This document shows positions 3,581 through 13,734 of a DNA stretch of 13,857 bases, piece by piece. The notes below the pieces were generated by a model. The model was not told the origin of the DNA. It ran no database searches and saw only the letters and a program-made list of their open reading frames with translations. Location: NCBI GenBank assembly GCA_016201575.1, contig JACQCN010000446.1, forward strand, positions 1 through 13,857, in the 5' to 3' direction. The first letter of the stretch is position 1. The number at the start of each line of letters is the position of its first letter. Origin of the DNA: Candidatus Rokuibacteriota bacterium (lineage in GTDB: Bacteria; Methylomirabilota; Methylomirabilia; Rokubacteriales; CSP1-6). The position numbers were made by a program, and so were the translations under genes.

Positions 3581-3727
3581 GTCAGCGCGCGGGTCGGGGT
3601 AGCGGGTCACCGCCGGGAGGGCCGAAAGGATCGCGTCGGCCACGCGCGGAGATAGCCCCAACGGGTTGATGCTCGCGCTGAGGTCGAGCACCGCGGCGTC
3701 GCGGTGACCGCCGTGGTCCTCTCTCAT
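3581..3727 (-). pseudogene. cobD: N-terminal fragment of threonine-phosphate decarboxylase (cobalamin nucleotide-loop pathway)
   Basis: The first ~48 codons read MREDHGGHRDAAVLDLSAS followed by INPLGLSP and end at TRYPDPRA. This is the characteristic N-terminus of the PLP-dependent CobD/CobC decarboxylase that makes aminopropanol phosphate, the substrate joined by CbiB. The family is normally about 350 residues, so nearly all of the enzyme, including the PLP lysine, is missing. The ATG at 3727 overlaps the cbiB stop (ATGA), as in an intact operon. Homology stops abruptly near 3580, and the reading frame then runs out of frame into argS. Either a deletion joined this gene to the argS leader, or two loci were joined during assembly. 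Confidence 0.8.
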
Positions 3728-4638
3728 TGCCGGCTCGCCACCAGATCGGCGACCACGCCGAGCGCGCCCACGAGCGCGGCCGCCGCCGCGAGCACCCTGA
3801 GGCTGCGCCCGATGTCGCCGCCGTCCGGCGGCCGGCCCTCGCCGAGACGGTAGATCCCCGCCTTCTCGAGGACCAGGCCGAGCGCGCCGGCCATCGCCGC
3901 CATCGGCCACCCCGCGTTCGGGCTGGCGGTGCGTCCGCGGTCTCGCCGGAGGATCCGCGCGGCGCCGCGGGCGTCGGCGCCAACCAGCCCCGCGCCGGCC
4001 ACCAGCGCGAGCGCCGCGACGCGCGCCGGGACGAGATTCAGCAGGTCGTCGAGTCGCGCGGCCGCCTTGCCGAGGTACTCGAGCAGCCCGCCGCGGTAAC
4101 CCACCATGGCGTCGGCGGTGTTCACGACGCGATAGGCCCAGGCGCCGGGCAGCCCGAAGGCGAGGTAGAAGGCGATCGGCGCGACGAAGCTGTCGGTCAG
4201 GTTCTCCGCGACGGACTCGACGGCGGCCGAGGCGACGCCCTCCGCTCGGAGCCCGCCCGTGGGTCGGCTCACCAGATGGTAGCCGACCTCCGCGCGCGCC
4301 CGGGCGAGGTCGGCGCACGCGAGCGCCCGCTCGACGCGGCGCGCTCTCGACATGAGCCCGCGAAGCGAAAACGAGCACTTGAGCAGCCACGCTTCAATCA
4401 GCACTCCAAGCCAGCCAGCCCCGGAAAGGACCATCGAGAGTCGGGCGATCAGCGCGGCGACCGCGCCTGCTCCCGCGAGCACCACGAGCATCCCGTAGAG
4501 GAGTGGCGCGAGGCGGCCGCGGCGCGGGGTCGCGCGAAAGGCGAGGTCGAGTCCCCGGCCGACCCACCTCACGGGATGCCAGCGGTTGGGCGGGTCGCCG
4601 ACAGCGAGGTCCAGGACGAGGGCGACCAGGAGGATCAC
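3724..4638 (-). CDS. cbiB: Adenosylcobinamide-phosphate synthase CbiB
   Basis: An integral membrane enzyme that joins aminopropanol phosphate to adenosylcobyric acid. The 304-residue protein carries family signatures in order: LDLAVGDPPNRWHPVRWVGR near the N-terminus, a membrane span around LVVLAGAGAVAALIARL, VSRPTGGLRAEGVASAAVES continuing as VAENLTDSFVAP, VNTADAMVGYRG, ARLDDLLNLVPARV, and SPNAGWPMAAMAGALG. No frameshift or missing motif was found, unlike its neighbours. GTG at 4638 overlaps the stop of the cbiZ remnant (GTGA), and the stop overlaps the start of the cobD fragment. It lies downstream of a cobalamin riboswitch, so B12-repressed expression is likely. Its substrate-supplying partner next door is broken; cbiB may be orphaned unless other copies exist. 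Confidence 0.93.
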   Translation of the reverse strand: MILLVALVLDLAVGDPPNRWHPVRWVGRGLDLAFRATPRRGRLAPLLYGMLVVLAGAGAVAALIARLSMVLSGAGWLGVLIEAWLLKCSFSLRGLMSRARRVERALACADLARARAEVGYHLVSRPTGGLRAEGVASAAVESVAENLTDSFVAPIAFYLAFGLPGAWAYRVVNTADAMVGYRGGLLEYLGKAAARLDDLLNLVPARVAALALVAGAGLVGADARGAARILRRDRGRTASPNAGWPMAAMAGALGLVLEKAGIYRLGEGRPPDGGDIGRSLRVLAAAAALVGALGVVADLVASRQ

Positions 4639-5117: not shown

Positions 5118-5312
5118 GAATGGGCACCGGCCCTGGCCGGGTCTCCTGACTCGTGGATCAGCGCGCACGTCCCGGCCTTCCCATCCCTGACGGACAGTGG
5201 CTTCCGCATCACGCGGAGGTTGGACGCCGCTCCCCACTCACAGTGGCGCGACCGTGCCGGCTTCAGCCGAGCTTCACCGGCTTCCCTCGATCCAGGGCGA
5301 ACACGGGTCAGC
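5118..5312 (-). promoter_or_regulatory. Cobalamin (AdoCbl) riboswitch
   Basis: Read on the minus strand, the class landmarks occur in order: GGGAAGCCGGTG near 5285-5274, then ACGGTCGCGCCACTGT (5255-5240), GCCACTG (5201-5195), GGGAAGGC (5182-5175), and the B12-box segment GTCAGGAGACC (5150-5140). GGCCAGGGCCGG follows, which could form the switching hairpin. About 30 nt later come the strong Shine-Dalgarno and the start of the truncated btuB reading frame. This class usually represses downstream B12 uptake and salvage genes when adenosylcobalamin is plentiful, by hiding the ribosome-binding site or terminating. Core motifs look intact although most genes it would control are broken. The exact ends are approximate. 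Confidence 0.95.
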
Positions 5313-5895: not shown

Positions 5896-6053
5896 GCCGC
5901 CGCCCTCATCACCAGCGACGCGCCGCGCCGCGGCGCTTGCTCGGCGTTCCGCCCGCTCAACGGTTCACGCGGTTCCTTCATCGCCCTCATCACCAGCGAC
6001 GCGCCGCTGCGCGGCGCTTGCGATACGGAACGCTCGCCTTCGGCTCGCATCAT
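5892..6053 (-). CDS. 53-codon repeat-built ORF of unknown function
   Basis: An open frame from ATG 6053 to TGA 5892 consists almost entirely of a repeated peptide. MRAEGERSVS is followed by QAPRSGASLVMRAMKEPREP, then LSGRNAEQAPRRGASLVMRA and AA before the stop. The two QAPR(S/R)GASLVMRA units come from the 40-bp repeats listed separately; their 81-bp spacing is a multiple of three, so both are read in the same frame. The stop overlaps the GTG start of broken btuD (GTGA), and the ATG overlaps a TGA ending another open frame just after the istA remnant. It may be a repeat-derived tail of a lost permease gene rather than a real gene. No domain or function is recognised. Confidence 0.3.
   Translation of the reverse strand: MMRAEGERSVSQAPRSGASLVMRAMKEPREPLSGRNAEQAPRRGASLVMRAAA
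5901..5940 (-). repeat. 40-bp hairpin repeat, copy 1
   Basis: Identical to copy 2 (5982-6021) at 38 of 40 positions. It contains the inverted repeat GCGCCGC-GCC-GCGGCGC (7-bp stem, 3-nt loop). The only differences between copies are in the loop, GCC here and TGC in copy 2. Confidence 0.85.
5982..6021 (-). repeat. 40-bp hairpin repeat, copy 2
   Basis: Second copy, 81 bp from the first, with hairpin GCGCCGC-TGC-GCGGCGC. The stem and the 19-bp flank are identical to copy 1. The 41 bp between the copies are not repeated. Confidence 0.85.
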
Positions 6054-6106
6054 TGGTGCCCGTCACGAAATAAGAGGATCACGTTCGAGCTTGGGGTCGG
6101 GAGGAG

Positions 6107-6686
6107 TGAAAGGCGCGCTGATGGCTCGCGATCCAGTCGGGGACCTGCTGCGTGCGCGTGGCTTCGGCGTAGGTGTAGTTGGACGCCCCGAGGACGGCGA
6201 CGAACAGCTCGACCTCGATCACCTCGCCTGTGGCGGCGTCGATGATCGACGGCTTCTTCCCTGCGTAGTCGACGAAGCACTTCTCGCCGCCGAGATGCAC
6301 CTGGCGCATCGAAAGCCCGCGGCGTTTGAGCCAGCGCCGATAGAACTCGCAAAATTGGGTGTAGCGATAGCCGGCGGGATGCTGCTCCAGGTACTCGAGG
6401 TGCAGCTGTTCGAGGGTGACGCCGGGCTTCCGGCGCTCGGCATGCAGGTAGGCGCAGTCGGGCACAGCCCGATAGTGGGTGGGCGGCGTCGGGGGCCCGT
6501 ACACGCGGGGCCTCCAGCACCTCGTCGGTGAGCGTGTCGACCTGGGCCCAGTCGAGCCCGGCAGCCCGCGCCCGGCGCTCGACGGTCGAGACAGTACCGA
6601 GGCTGACCTGCAGACTTTCCGCCACCTGACGGTGGGTCCGGCCCAGGGTCTCACTTCTGTCACAGGATCTCGCGAATCTGCCCCAT
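6107..6686 (-). pseudogene. istA: IS21-family transposase IstA remnant, frameshifted and truncated
   Basis: The remnant begins at ATG 6686 (MGQIREIL, then a TGA in frame). It continues in a second frame with GRTHRQVAESLQVSLGTVST (the helix-turn-helix) and RRARAAGLDWAQVDTLTDEV. From about 6507 a third frame carries YLHAERRKPGVTLEQLHLEY, RYTQFCEFYRRWLKRRGLSM, FVDYAGKKPSIIDAATGEVI and YAEATRTQQVPDWIASHQRA. The second shift looks like an extra base in the G4 run at 6507-6510. FVDYAGKK carries the first catalytic aspartate of the DDE domain. Similarity stops at AFH (about 6107), so the rest of istA and all of istB are missing. It is inactive and lies next to the ruined B12 locus. Confidence 0.88.
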
Positions 6687-8969: not shown

Positions 8970-9959
8970 ATGCGCTGGCTGATCGTCCTTCCGTCGGAAG
9001 GCCCGGAGCACATGGGGATGGACTTCCGCGCCGAGCTGGAGGCGATGGGGCACGCCGTCTCGACCTTCGCCTACCGCCGGCGCAACCCGCTCTACAAGAA
9101 CAAGGGCACGAAGGCCGCCTACCAGCTCTGGATCCTCCGGCGCCTCGAGCGCGCGTGCGTGGCCTGGCGGCCCGACTGCGTGCTCGTGATCAAGGGCGGG
9201 CCGATCACGCCGGGGCTGATCCGGCGGGTGAAGGCACGGGTCGACACGCTCTTCGTGAACTTCTTCCCCGACAACCCGCTCCTGATGATCCCCTTCGAGT
9301 GCATCGAGGCCTACGACATCTTCTTCACCAAGGAGCGCTACGCGCTCCGGCAGCTCGAGCAGGTCGGCCTCCACAACCTCTACTACCTGCCGATGCACTG
9401 CGTGCCCCGCTTCCACCACCCGGTCGAGCCGACGCCCGAGGAGGCGCGGGCGCTGGAGGGCGTCGTCGCGTTCGTGGGGAGTCGGTACCTCTACCGGGAG
9501 CGGCTCCTCAAGGAGCTGGCCGCCTACCCGCTCCGGATCTGGGGGCCGGGGTGGGACGAGGCCGCGGCGGCGCTGCGTCCGCTGATCGCGGGCGGCGCCG
9601 TGTGGGGCCGCGACAAGCTGGCGATCTACTGCGGCGCCCGGCTCTCGCTGAACCTCCACCATCCGCTCAACGACATCGTCGGGGTGAACACGCGCACGTT
9701 CGAGCTGGCGGCCGCCGGCGCCTGCCAGGTCGTCGACCTCAAGGACGACCTCCCCGCCCTCTTCAAGCCCGGCGAGGAGGTCGTGGCCTATCGCGACCTG
9801 GCGGACCTCGACCGCCAGCTCGACTACTATCTGGCGCACCCCGAGGAGGCGCGGGCGATCGGCGCCAACGCGCACCGCCGGGCGATGGCGGAGCACACGC
9901 TGCGGCACCGGATCGACGAGATGCTGCTCGCGATCGAGGAGCGCTTCGGCCGCCTGTGA
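8970..9959 (+). CDS. CgeB-family glycosyltransferase
   Basis: A 329-residue protein like the CgeB / glycosyl transferases group 1 family, first named from a Bacillus spore-coat gene but common in non-sporulating bacteria. It starts MRWLIVLPSEGPEHMGMDFR, a Rossmann-like N-terminal domain. The C-terminal domain has VVAFVGSRYLYRERLLKELA, LRIWGPGWDEA, AIYCGARLSLNLHH, VNTRTFELAAAGACQVVD and LFKPGEEVVAYRDLADLDRQ. The run from VNTRTFELAAAG to the acidic GEEV resembles the family's sugar-nucleotide-binding end. It is cytosolic and the acceptor is unknown. It stands alone, not in a polysaccharide cluster; the next gene is 195 nt away. No frame damage is seen. Confidence 0.88.
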   Translation: MRWLIVLPSEGPEHMGMDFRAELEAMGHAVSTFAYRRRNPLYKNKGTKAAYQLWILRRLERACVAWRPDCVLVIKGGPITPGLIRRVKARVDTLFVNFFPDNPLLMIPFECIEAYDIFFTKERYALRQLEQVGLHNLYYLPMHCVPRFHHPVEPTPEEARALEGVVAFVGSRYLYRERLLKELAAYPLRIWGPGWDEAAAALRPLIAGGAVWGRDKLAIYCGARLSLNLHHPLNDIVGVNTRTFELAAAGACQVVDLKDDLPALFKPGEEVVAYRDLADLDRQLDYYLAHPEEARAIGANAHRRAMAEHTLRHRIDEMLLAIEERFGRL

Positions 9960-10081: not shown

Positions 10082-10153
10082 TTCGAGCGCCGGCTTTGCC
10101 GGCGCAATCCCGGGGGGAGGTTCGGAAGGGGGGCGGAGCCTCCCTCCGAGTGA
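10082..10153 (+). repeat. Dispersed hairpin repeat A, ending 1 nt before the thrC-like gene
   Basis: Starts TTCGAGCGCCGGC, loop TTT, GCCGGCGCAA (8-bp perfect stem), then a G-rich stretch, then CCTCCCTCCGAGTGA. It is related to repeat B before lgt: the first 26 bp match except for two loop bases, and both end in CCCTCCGAGT followed by the end of a stop codon. Read in frame it encodes FERRLCRRNPGG to AEPPSE-stop, where B encodes FERRLRRRKSVL to AEAPSE-stop. The rest of the 9960-10154 gap shows nothing I recognise. Confidence 0.8.
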
Positions 10154-10154
10154 G

Positions 10155-11393
10155 ATGGTAGAGTCGCTCGCCCGCGACCTCGTGTGCATCGACTGCGGCG
10201 CCGTCTCCCCGCTCGGTTACCGGCTCGAGTGCGATAAGTGTCGCGGCCTGCTGGAGCTCCGCTACGACCTGGATCGGCTGCGAGCGAAGGGACCGGCGCT
10301 CTTCGCCGGCCCCGGGCTCTGGCGGTACGCCGCCGTGCTGCCCGTCGGCGATGCCGCCCACCGGGTGACGCTCGGCGAGGGCGGCACGCCGCTCCTCGAG
10401 TGCCCGCGCCTGGCCCGGCAGCTCGGGGTCCGGCGCCTCCTCCTCAAGTACGACGGCAGCAACCCCACGGGAACCGTGAAGGACCGGACGTCGGCGACCG
10501 CGGTCGGCGCCGCGCTCCAGTTCGGCTACACCGCGACCTCGGTGGTCAGCTCGGGCAACGCCGGCTCCTCGATCGCCGCCTACTCGGCGCGCGCGGGCCT
10601 GCGCTCGCTGATCTTCGCCTACGAGCGGGCGTCGGCCCCGAAGCTCCTGCACATGTCGGCCACCGCCTCGGACCTCATCATTTACAAGGGCGTCTACGAC
10701 GACCTGATCACGCTGTGGGACCGGCTCGTCGAGGAGCGGCTCTTCTTCGACTGCGGCGCTTCCCGCAACCCCTACAAGCACGAGGGGAAGAAGACGCTGG
10801 CCTACGAGATCGCCGAGCAGTCCGGCTGGGCGCCGCCCGACGTCGTGGTGGCGCCGGTGGCCGTGGGCGAGACGTTCATCGCGACGGCGCGCGGGTTCCG
10901 CGAGCTGCGCGACGCGGGCCTGATCGCCCGCCTGCCGCGCATGGTCGCCGCGCAGGCCACCCGCGCCAACGCGATCGCGCGCGCCTTCCGCGACGGGACG
11001 GCGATCACGCCGATCAAGATCGGCTACACGGTGGCCGAGGGCCTGGCGGCGGGGAGTCCGGGCCGCAAGGGCGACTGGGTGCTCCGCCTCCTGCGCGAGC
11101 ACGACGGGCTCGCCGCCGACGCGGAGGACCAGGAGATCCTCGACGCGCAGCGGCTGGTGGCGCGCGCGGAGGGGATCTGGGCGGGGCCGACGGGCGTGGC
11201 CACGGTGGCGGTGCTGAAGCGCCTCCTGGAGGGCCGGCAGCTCGACCCCGCCCAGACGATCTGCGCGATCATCAGCGAGACGGGGCTCAAGACGGAGGCC
11301 GCGCTGCCCAGCCGCGAGGGCACCGCGTTCGACCTCGACTCGCTCCGCCGCCTCGTCGTCGAGCGCCTGTCCGGGCGCGGACGCCCGGGCTAA
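10155..11393 (+). CDS. thrC: Threonine-synthase-like PLP-dependent enzyme
   Basis: A 412-residue fold-type II PLP enzyme resembling threonine synthase (O-phosphohomoserine to threonine). An N-terminal zinc ribbon has CIDC (11-14) and CDKC (26-29), as in the longer ThrC group. GEGGTPLLECPRLARQLGV follows. The PLP lysine lies in NPTGTVKDR (Lys109), and the phosphate-binding loop is SSGNAGSSIAAYSA (from 132). Two places differ from usual ThrC: TVKDR rather than SFKDR, and APVAVGETF where a glycine-rich GNGGN-type loop is common. A related beta-elimination or replacement enzyme therefore cannot be excluded. The ATG at 10155 is chosen for the ribbon start; only weak GAGTGAG precedes it. Repeat A ends 1 nt before it, and an inverted-repeat element begins right after its stop. 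Confidence 0.82.
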   Translation: MVESLARDLVCIDCGAVSPLGYRLECDKCRGLLELRYDLDRLRAKGPALFAGPGLWRYAAVLPVGDAAHRVTLGEGGTPLLECPRLARQLGVRRLLLKYDGSNPTGTVKDRTSATAVGAALQFGYTATSVVSSGNAGSSIAAYSARAGLRSLIFAYERASAPKLLHMSATASDLIIYKGVYDDLITLWDRLVEERLFFDCGASRNPYKHEGKKTLAYEIAEQSGWAPPDVVVAPVAVGETFIATARGFRELRDAGLIARLPRMVAAQATRANAIARAFRDGTAITPIKIGYTVAEGLAAGSPGRKGDWVLRLLREHDGLAADAEDQEILDAQRLVARAEGIWAGPTGVATVAVLKRLLEGRQLDPAQTICAIISETGLKTEAALPSREGTAFDLDSLRRLVVERLSGRGRPG

Positions 11394-12875: not shown

Positions 12876-13655
12876 TCAGGCGGGCTGGGCGCGCTTCATG
12901 AGCTTCGGCACCCAGACGATCGCGAGCAGGATGCCGGCGGCGCTCGCGAGCTGGGCCACGCGGAAAGGCCCGAGCATGAGCGCGTCGACGCGGAGCCGCT
13001 CGATCCACAGGCGTCCGAAGGAGTACCACCCGAGGTAGGCGAGGAAGAGCGCGCCCGGCGCGCGCTCGAGCCGGTGACGGCTCGCGATCAGGATGACGAG
13101 CACGATCAGGCTCCACACGGACTCGTAGAGGAAGGCCGGGTGGAAGAAGTCCGCCTGCACGTAGAGGAGCGGGCGATGGGCGGGGGAGACGTAGAGCCCC
13201 CACGGCAGCGCGGTCGGGAGGCCGAACGCCTCCGCGTTGAAGAAGTCGCCCCAGCGGCCGATCGCCTGCCCGAGCGCCAGGGCCGGGGCCGCGGCGTCGA
13301 GGCAGCGGCCGACGGGGAGCCCTCGCCGCCACGCGTAGGCGCCGCCGGCGAGGAACCCGCCGATCAACCCGCCGTGGATCGCGGCGCCGCCCTCCCACAC
13401 CGCGAGGATCTTCCACGGCACCGCCCCGTAGTAGTCCCAGGAGAACAGCACGTAGTAGAGGCGCGCCCCGACGAGGCCGCCGAGCAGCGCGAGCTCGCCC
13501 GCCTTGAGCATCTCGCGGGGATCCAGGCCGCGGCGCCCGGCCGCGCGCGCCGCCACCCAGAGCCCGGCGCCCATCGCCAGCGCCACGACGACTCCGTACC
13601 AGCGCAGCGTCAGCGGCCCCACGTGGAGCAGCACCGCGCCGGGCGAGCGGAACAC
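12876..13655 (-). CDS. lgt: Prolipoprotein diacylglyceryl transferase
   Basis: An integral inner-membrane enzyme that transfers diacylglycerol from phosphatidylglycerol to the lipobox cysteine, the first step of lipoprotein maturation. The 259-residue length and multiple membrane spans fit. It starts VFRSPGAVLLHVGPLTLRWY. Family motifs are GARLYYVLF (about 63-71), IHGGLIGGFLAGG (93-105) and the signature GRWGDFFNAEAFG (133-145), followed by HPAFLYES and LGWYSFGRLWIERLR. The GTG at 13655 is chosen because the N-terminus matches the family and the preceding repeat-B frame ends 4 nt before it. No frame damage. Three lipoproteins that would be its substrates are encoded in the window. Confidence 0.95.
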   Translation of the reverse strand: MFRSPGAVLLHVGPLTLRWYGVVVALAMGAGLWVAARAAGRRGLDPREMLKAGELALLGGLVGARLYYVLFSWDYYGAVPWKILAVWEGGAAIHGGLIGGFLAGGAYAWRRGLPVGRCLDAAAPALALGQAIGRWGDFFNAEAFGLPTALPWGLYVSPAHRPLLYVQADFFHPAFLYESVWSLIVLVILIASRHRLERAPGALFLAYLGWYSFGRLWIERLRVDALMLGPFRVAQLASAAGILLAIVWVPKLMKRAQPA

Positions 13656-13659
13656 CAGC

Positions 13660-13734
13660 CTACTCGGAGGGGGCCTCGGCGGCCCCCTCGGATGCCTCCA
13701 GAACCGACTTGCGCCGGCGGAGCCGGCGCTCGAA
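13660..13734 (-). repeat. Dispersed hairpin repeat B, ending 4 nt before lgt
   Basis: On the minus strand TTCGAGCGCCGGC, loop TCC, GCCGGCGCAA, a spacer, then a second hairpin GAGGGGGCC-GCCGA-GGCCCCCTC, ending CCTCCGAGTAG. Same orientation and position relative to the downstream start codon as repeat A. Hairpin 1 has an identical stem and a different loop. Confidence 0.85.

Follow-up and report, generated by a model that had tools for sequence, protein, structure and literature searches.

A dispersed two-hairpin repeat family of Rokubacteria lies preferentially against the stop codons of opposite-strand genes

The window, that is the whole stretch of 13,857 nt analysed here, is contig C117 of a draft genome (G000; 77% complete, 2.57 Mb, 471 contigs) and carries two similar palindromic repeats, which were recognised by sequence inspection and by profile match (E values 1.5e-17 for repeat A and 2.6e-14 for repeat B). 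Repeat A (10082..10153, + strand), whose reading direction is used for the whole family below, has its core at 10085-10105 in the form GAGCGCCGGC-TTT-GCCGGCGC, and hairpin 1 is a perfect 8-bp stem (10087-10094/10098-10105). Hairpin 2 lies within about 10112-10147, and the repeat ends in CCTCCGAG and a TGA (10151-10153), 1 nt before the ATG (10155) of a gene for a PLP-dependent, threonine-synthase-like (thrC-like) enzyme with a PALP domain (10155..11393, +). Repeat B (13660..13734, -) has its core at 13731-13711 (-) as GAGCGCCGGC-TCC-GCCGGCGC, differing from repeat A in the loop alone, with the hairpin 1 stem at 13729-13722/13718-13711; a G/C-rich hairpin 2 follows, then CCTCCGAG and a TAG (13662-13660), 4 nt before the GTG (13655) of lgt, encoding prolipoprotein diacylglyceryl transferase (12876..13655, -). 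The first-pass annotation had described just this pair, with its 8-bp stem, its TTT and TCC loops and its stop codons 1 and 4 nt before the start codons, and the sequence agrees. On translation both repeats are open in one frame, FERRLCRR...PSE and the stop in repeat A and FERRLRRRKSVLEASEGAAEAPSE and the stop in repeat B. Upstream of repeat A lies a glycosyltransferase-like gene (8970..9959, +; stop codon 9957-9959). The genome has a second lgt-like gene at L037 (1161-1944), about 59% alike to the window lgt (12876-13655); both genes bear a repeat of the family, the window lgt at its start and the L037 copy at its stop. Elsewhere in the window, a cobalamin riboswitch (5119-5310, -; 74 bits) stands ahead of a CobD/CbiB-type gene (3727-4638) and was the single Rfam match at gathering score when the window was searched, the repeats giving no match. 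In addition, two 40-nt direct repeats (5901-5940 and 5982-6021), 95% alike and 81 nt apart, lie near a short open frame (6082-6504) without a Pfam match.

The proposal that the two repeats belong to a dispersed family, which could be traced by a 26-bp hairpin core, was borne out, and G000 is far from a two-copy genome. Searched with at most 2 mismatches, the core pattern gave 184 forward and 185 reverse matches, against 16 and 12 in the reversed control, and since most sites match on both strands the family amounts to about 180 sites. The stricter 24-base pattern gave 91 and 89 matches and none in the control. An 80-column profile, built from 90 copies with exact cores, was run on the 80 contigs of G000 (597,707 bp) that hold the first 100 listed places; it found 130 matches with E<0.01, among them 124 with E<1e-6, and no match at E<0.01 on the same 597,707 bp reversed. 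These copy numbers, far above the reversed controls, confirm a repeat family and not a chance similarity. Of 40 genomes searched, 27 had matches: G000 and each of the 26 further members of its order. The remaining 13, from the same class but outside the order, had none. The copy numbers are very unequal: G001, G003, G011, G013, G016 and G021 have 1-4 matches each over both strands, close to the control, and within the genus of the window G002 has about 200 matches and G001 is at background. A longer pattern matched 94 stretches in a collection of named genomes, and among the 80 matches listed, 79 are from metagenome-assembled genomes of Candidatus Rokubacteria/Rokuibacteriota and one is from a genome labelled Acidobacteria. 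To date the family is known only from the Rokubacteria order. Near-identical copies are scarce (a twin at 0.97 or more in 3 of 124 and 9 of 72 copies), so that no recent burst is seen.

The family core is about 75 nt long and consists of hairpin 1 (GCGCCGGC-NNN-GCCGGCGC) and a hairpin 2 made of G and C runs, in the layout TTCGA-GCGCCGGC-NNN-GCCGGCGC-AA...GGGGGAGG...(C)GGA(A)GGGGG...CCCCC(T)TCCGA. Conservation of the stem with a free loop, which had been suggested from the two window copies, holds for the family. The inner stem of hairpin 1 could be parsed in 266 of 290 copies and is CCG/CGG in 251, CGG/CCG in 4 and CTG/CAG in 1, counts to be read with the bias that a profile from exact cores favours the CCG/CGG stem and that the outer stem is fixed by the search pattern. 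The last two forms, five stems in all, are altered on both sides with pairing kept, and the other 10 parsed stems are not Watson-Crick (a few with G-T). The loops vary freely, TTT in 119, TTC in 54 and TCC in 53 copies, and in G002 the copy that precedes the thrC-like gene has the stem GCGGCGGC/GCCGCCGC. The types of hairpin 2 differ in the loop and the outer pairs, with two-sided changes from TCGGA/TCCGA to TCGAA/TTCGA in 7 copies and to CCGGA/TCCGG in 3, and a one-sided change, TCGAA opposite TCCGA, in 32. Several subfamilies carry left arms of 20-40 nt, of at least three types. One of these, read toward the neighbouring gene, resembles CGCGAGAGGAGGGTAGTCCA-GTGAGC and includes a Shine-Dalgarno-like stretch, and in 7 of 13 such arms 31-33 nt separate the left end of the model from the called start. 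The left-arm motif was rejected as a separate native site, as it has few matches outside the elements (four samples: 1, 3, 2 and 5), close to the coding rate in three of them and above it in the named loci. Loop-loop complementarity between the hairpins was also rejected (17 of 80 against 16.4 in shuffled sequences). Direct tandem pairs about 76 nt apart occur at L063, L083 and L089. Seven G002 copies (among L234, L235, L237, L249 and L257) share a right flank beginning TGGGCAACGAAGTA, and an eighth, at L241, has a close variant of it; this type of flank was seen in neither of the other two samples.

The placement relative to genes was analysed for the same 290 copies (124 from G000, 72 from G002 and 94 from named loci), a non-random sample whose contigs and loci were mostly chosen for holding the repeat, with genes called by a purpose-written codon-usage finder, so that stop positions are more reliable than starts, and calls of small genes are uncertain. 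A right-hand gene was called for 276 copies and none for the other 14. In 105 of the 276 (38%; 45/124, 21/72 and 39/94 by sample), representing 105 different genes, an opposite-strand stop codon stands no more than about 8 nt from the right end, which is the hairpin-2 end, against an expected 2.8% for uniform insertion into element-free intergenic DNA. A sense start codon stands equally close to the right end in 28 of 276 (10%; 11, 3 and 14 by sample), where 3-4% is expected, and repeats A and B both belong to this class. As for the other copies, the right-hand gene starts at 9-40 nt in 32, overlaps the element in 23 and is far away in 54 on the side of its stop and in 34 on the side of its start. 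The left end meets a sense stop in 10 of 290 copies (3, 2 and 5) and an antisense start in 0, 0 and 2. Accordingly, the first-pass annotation was right that position and orientation are biased, and mistaken in taking start codons as the chief site. The peak at the stop is sharp, with 45, 20 and 39 copies in the bin from -5 to 5 of the model end against 0, 2 and 0 in the bin from 5 to 15, and in 122 parsed cases, from 108 different genes, 0-8 nt separate the stop from TCGGAGG. The stops of these 108 genes are TAG in 54, TGA in 27 and TAA in 27, compared with TGA 1051, TAG 504 and TAA 178 among all called stops (chi-square p 4e-14), so that TAG and TAA are over-represented at element-adjoining stops. 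Moreover, convergent gene pairs are enriched around the elements (21/113, 12/69 and 22/87 versus 59/555, 58/578 and 53/546) and divergent pairs are depleted. Two sequence-based causes of the stop placement were tried and rejected. Targeting of A/T-rich flanks, in a flank-weighted model, predicts 3.0% against the observed 38%, and a pre-existing TCGG after the stop was present within 12 nt in 3 of 32 empty orthologues (a set filtered for matching C-termini), with a background of 7%.

Comparison of syntenic orthologous junctions, in which one element can enter several comparisons, showed 49 of 77 to be empty, with a median gap of 53 nt, and 28 to be occupied in both genomes. Eleven of 12 orthologous junctions of the thrC-like gene are without the element, the twelfth (in G002) having one, and none of 8 lgt junctions has it. 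By eye, upstream stop and start are in contact or overlap (GTGA, for example) at 9 of the 11 empty thrC-like junctions, and the upstream stop stands directly at the start at 5 of the 8 lgt junctions. Repeats A and B therefore probably arrived at junctions of this abutting kind. For some empty sites, loss of the element, or a remnant too weak to pass E 1e-6, may be the explanation instead of a pre-insertion state. In a comparison run without a filter on matching C-termini, the C-terminus lay within 3 residues of that of the orthologue in 34 of 36 comparisons for stop-abutting genes and in 338 of 384 for element-free genes. The same C-terminus in element-free orthologues indicates that the stops beside the elements are native, and truncation of genes by element-supplied stops was rejected. 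It could be supposed that the repeats are vertically inherited native terminators, converged in sequence in a G/C-rich genome, as their post-stop position and their enrichment between convergent genes would fit. We judge this very improbable, since the copies share far more than a stem, not all orthologous junctions and not all species of one genus have them, many copies stand before start codons, and no U-tract occurs in the copies read; the empty orthologous sites largely refute it.

The shared open frame of repeats A and B had been taken as a sign of a role in translation, either by coupling to the next start or by adding tails to upstream proteins. Tails do occur. About 14 called genes end in tails read antisense from the element (SEGGSAPLPNLPPG..., LGGGLRPPSEPPPG..., SEGASAAPSETSP...), about 4 others in tails read in sense, and in about 3 genes the sense reading extends the N-terminus, all counted by eye; most element-encoded tails were identified in this way and few were compared with orthologues. 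Where the element lies just upstream of the stop and could be compared, the protein is longer by 16-35 residues in 4 of 5 comparisons (4 genes), the orthologues ending 0-4 residues past the junction. Most of the tails seen are read antisense, and the glycosyltransferase-like protein of the window is not among the tailed ones, as its gene ends at 9959, short of repeat A, and does not read through into it. Annotators should take note that, where Rokubacteria proteins end in sequences like SEGGSAPLPNLPPG..., the repeat encodes the tail. Coupling, in which ribosomes would translate the element in its sense frame and, from the stop there, re-initiate at the next start codon, appears quite improbable to us. 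The window copies, with TGA or TAG 1-4 nt before a start codon, and the start-proximal subset would suit it, as would the few genes that read into the element in sense, namely 7 overlaps beyond 12 nt on the left side and the sense tails and N-terminal extensions given above; one sense-reading gene in the ERRLCRR frame is an 81-aa call (G000|169). Start-proximal copies are, however, the minority class, a left sense gene overlaps the element in 7 of 145 copies, hairpin 2 would cover the region expected for the ribosome-binding site, and the open frame is a by-product of the conserved repeat sequence.

A mobilising enzyme was looked for in the incomplete drafts. The RAYT-type transposase that the first-pass annotation proposed to seek (Y1_Tnp, PF01797) was undetected in G000, G002, G009, G015, G017-G020, G025 and G026, which are 10 of the 12 copy-rich genomes (those with 40 or more matches), and matched in G008 and G012. 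Copy number is not tracked by reverse transcriptase (in 6 of 16 genomes), IS110 (13 of 16) or integron integrase (over the cut-off in 7 of 16). Integron-type integrases are found in pieces in G000 (C5:237-1185, C217:3715-4338 and C265:5126-5527, with only C5 over the curated cut-off) and, over the curated cut-off, in six relatives. That the repeats are attC-like recombination sites of an integron, which likewise stand after stops in one orientation, is hardly credible. The copy-rich G000, G009, G017 and G019 do have an integrase over the cut-off, but the copy-rich G002, G008, G015 and G018 have none and the copy-poor G004, G011 and G021 have one; furthermore, the flanking genes keep their synteny around empty sites, and an attC site is one long imperfect hairpin, unlike the two hairpins of this element.

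A pure filter acting on random insertions is unlikely to have produced the observed pattern, as it must forbid +9 to +30 nt from the stop and yet allow 0-8 nt and far sites. Targeting accounts for the sharp peak, the missing age trend (the stop-abutting fraction is flat with divergence, 0.39, 0.42, 0.42 and 0.29 by quartile) and the insertions that damage a stop. If targeting were everything, the repeats could be functionless selfish insertions aimed at stop codons by a mobilising enzyme or a process linked to translation or transcription, with the survivors mirroring the targeting. The sharp placement with the next 10 nt almost empty, the lack of an age trend and the landings slightly upstream of the stop, which cost the gene its stop in the tail comparisons, are in line with this; no enzyme was found among the candidates searched, and a short flank preference fails to reproduce the placement. 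We regard it as conceivable but rather unlikely. More speculative, and in our opinion unlikely, is a mobile palindrome that needs no RAYT and, with a fixed orientation, is aimed at the stop codon as such (about -12 to +8 nt) by a link to the ends of translation or transcription and not by the DNA sequence; it would then provide a ready-made post-stop hairpin, and one subfamily would also equip the following gene with a ribosome-binding site and a start region. The reading that we favour, with some confidence, is that the repeats are REP-like, non-autonomous palindromic elements that probably act as hairpins just after stop codons. New copies would enter at gene ends through some machinery, and in the usual position the mRNA of the gene would carry two hairpins directly after its stop codon. 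By analogy with the REPs of Escherichia coli these might serve as a 3'-end element, such as an exonuclease barrier, a weak terminator or a ribosome-stalling hairpin. The start-codon copies, including those of the window, are a minority; they are probably insertions that were tolerated where a stop and a start had overlapped or abutted. Against simple selection for an mRNA hairpin stands the folding prediction, which is not favoured on the gene strand: in 240 of 264 copies the predicted energy is lower on the other strand, that is, in the reading direction of repeat A.

Several known systems resemble this family in part. Rickettsia palindromic elements can be read in frame as parts of proteins, and the Rokubacteria element is readable within proteins too; the difference is that about 18 called genes have element-encoded C-termini and most copies lie outside genes. 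The first-pass annotation knew of no family placed in this way, but published REP families sit in much the same manner. The GTAG and CGTC REPs are short high-copy palindromes, mostly between tandem and convergent genes, which crowd 3' ends and provide stop codons, with some lying within ORFs; in two species most conv-REPs are <20 bp from both 3' ends and uni-REPs are near the 3' end of the upstream ORF, and the CGTC REPs seem to lack a dedicated transposase (PMC3733652). The Rokubacteria family is alike in being a high-copy intergenic palindrome near 3' ends with a preference for tandem and convergent genes. It differs in having no GTAG or CGTC tag beside hairpin 1, whose flanks, by eye, are mostly TTCGA...GCAA or GCCA, with GTAG only in some left arms and well off the stem. 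It also differs in its two unlike hairpins (about 75 nt) with arms, its host lineage and its strong end-specific orientation to the stop, and, from the GTAG type, in that RAYT was undetected in most of the copy-rich drafts. In E. coli, 260 of 496 REPs, the class within 15 nt of a stop, were proposed as translational regulators in an earlier work cited in PMC12306157, whose own count within 15 nt is 446 of 4,072. Post-stop hairpin function in our family would fit this work, by analogy, in that a hairpin close behind the stop is a candidate post-termination regulator, although the sequences are unrelated and the Rokubacteria placement is tighter (0-8 nt). As a yardstick, 9 pattern-defined REPs in 294 kb of K-12 included 1 within 15 nt of a stop, a set too small to compare orientation. 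A literature search gave no paper on such repeats in Rokubacteria among the matches listed. The present data extend REP-like families to a lineage that is deep and uncultured, and they give numbers to a known and unexplained REP pattern, that of repeats halting almost exactly at stop codons; presence and absence at orthologous junctions, together with the sharp spacing of 0-8 nt, make it possible to test targeting against selection. Thus stop-codon placement is a known REP trait, and the new features are the family itself, the lineage that hosts it, its unit of two hairpins and the tightness specific to one end.
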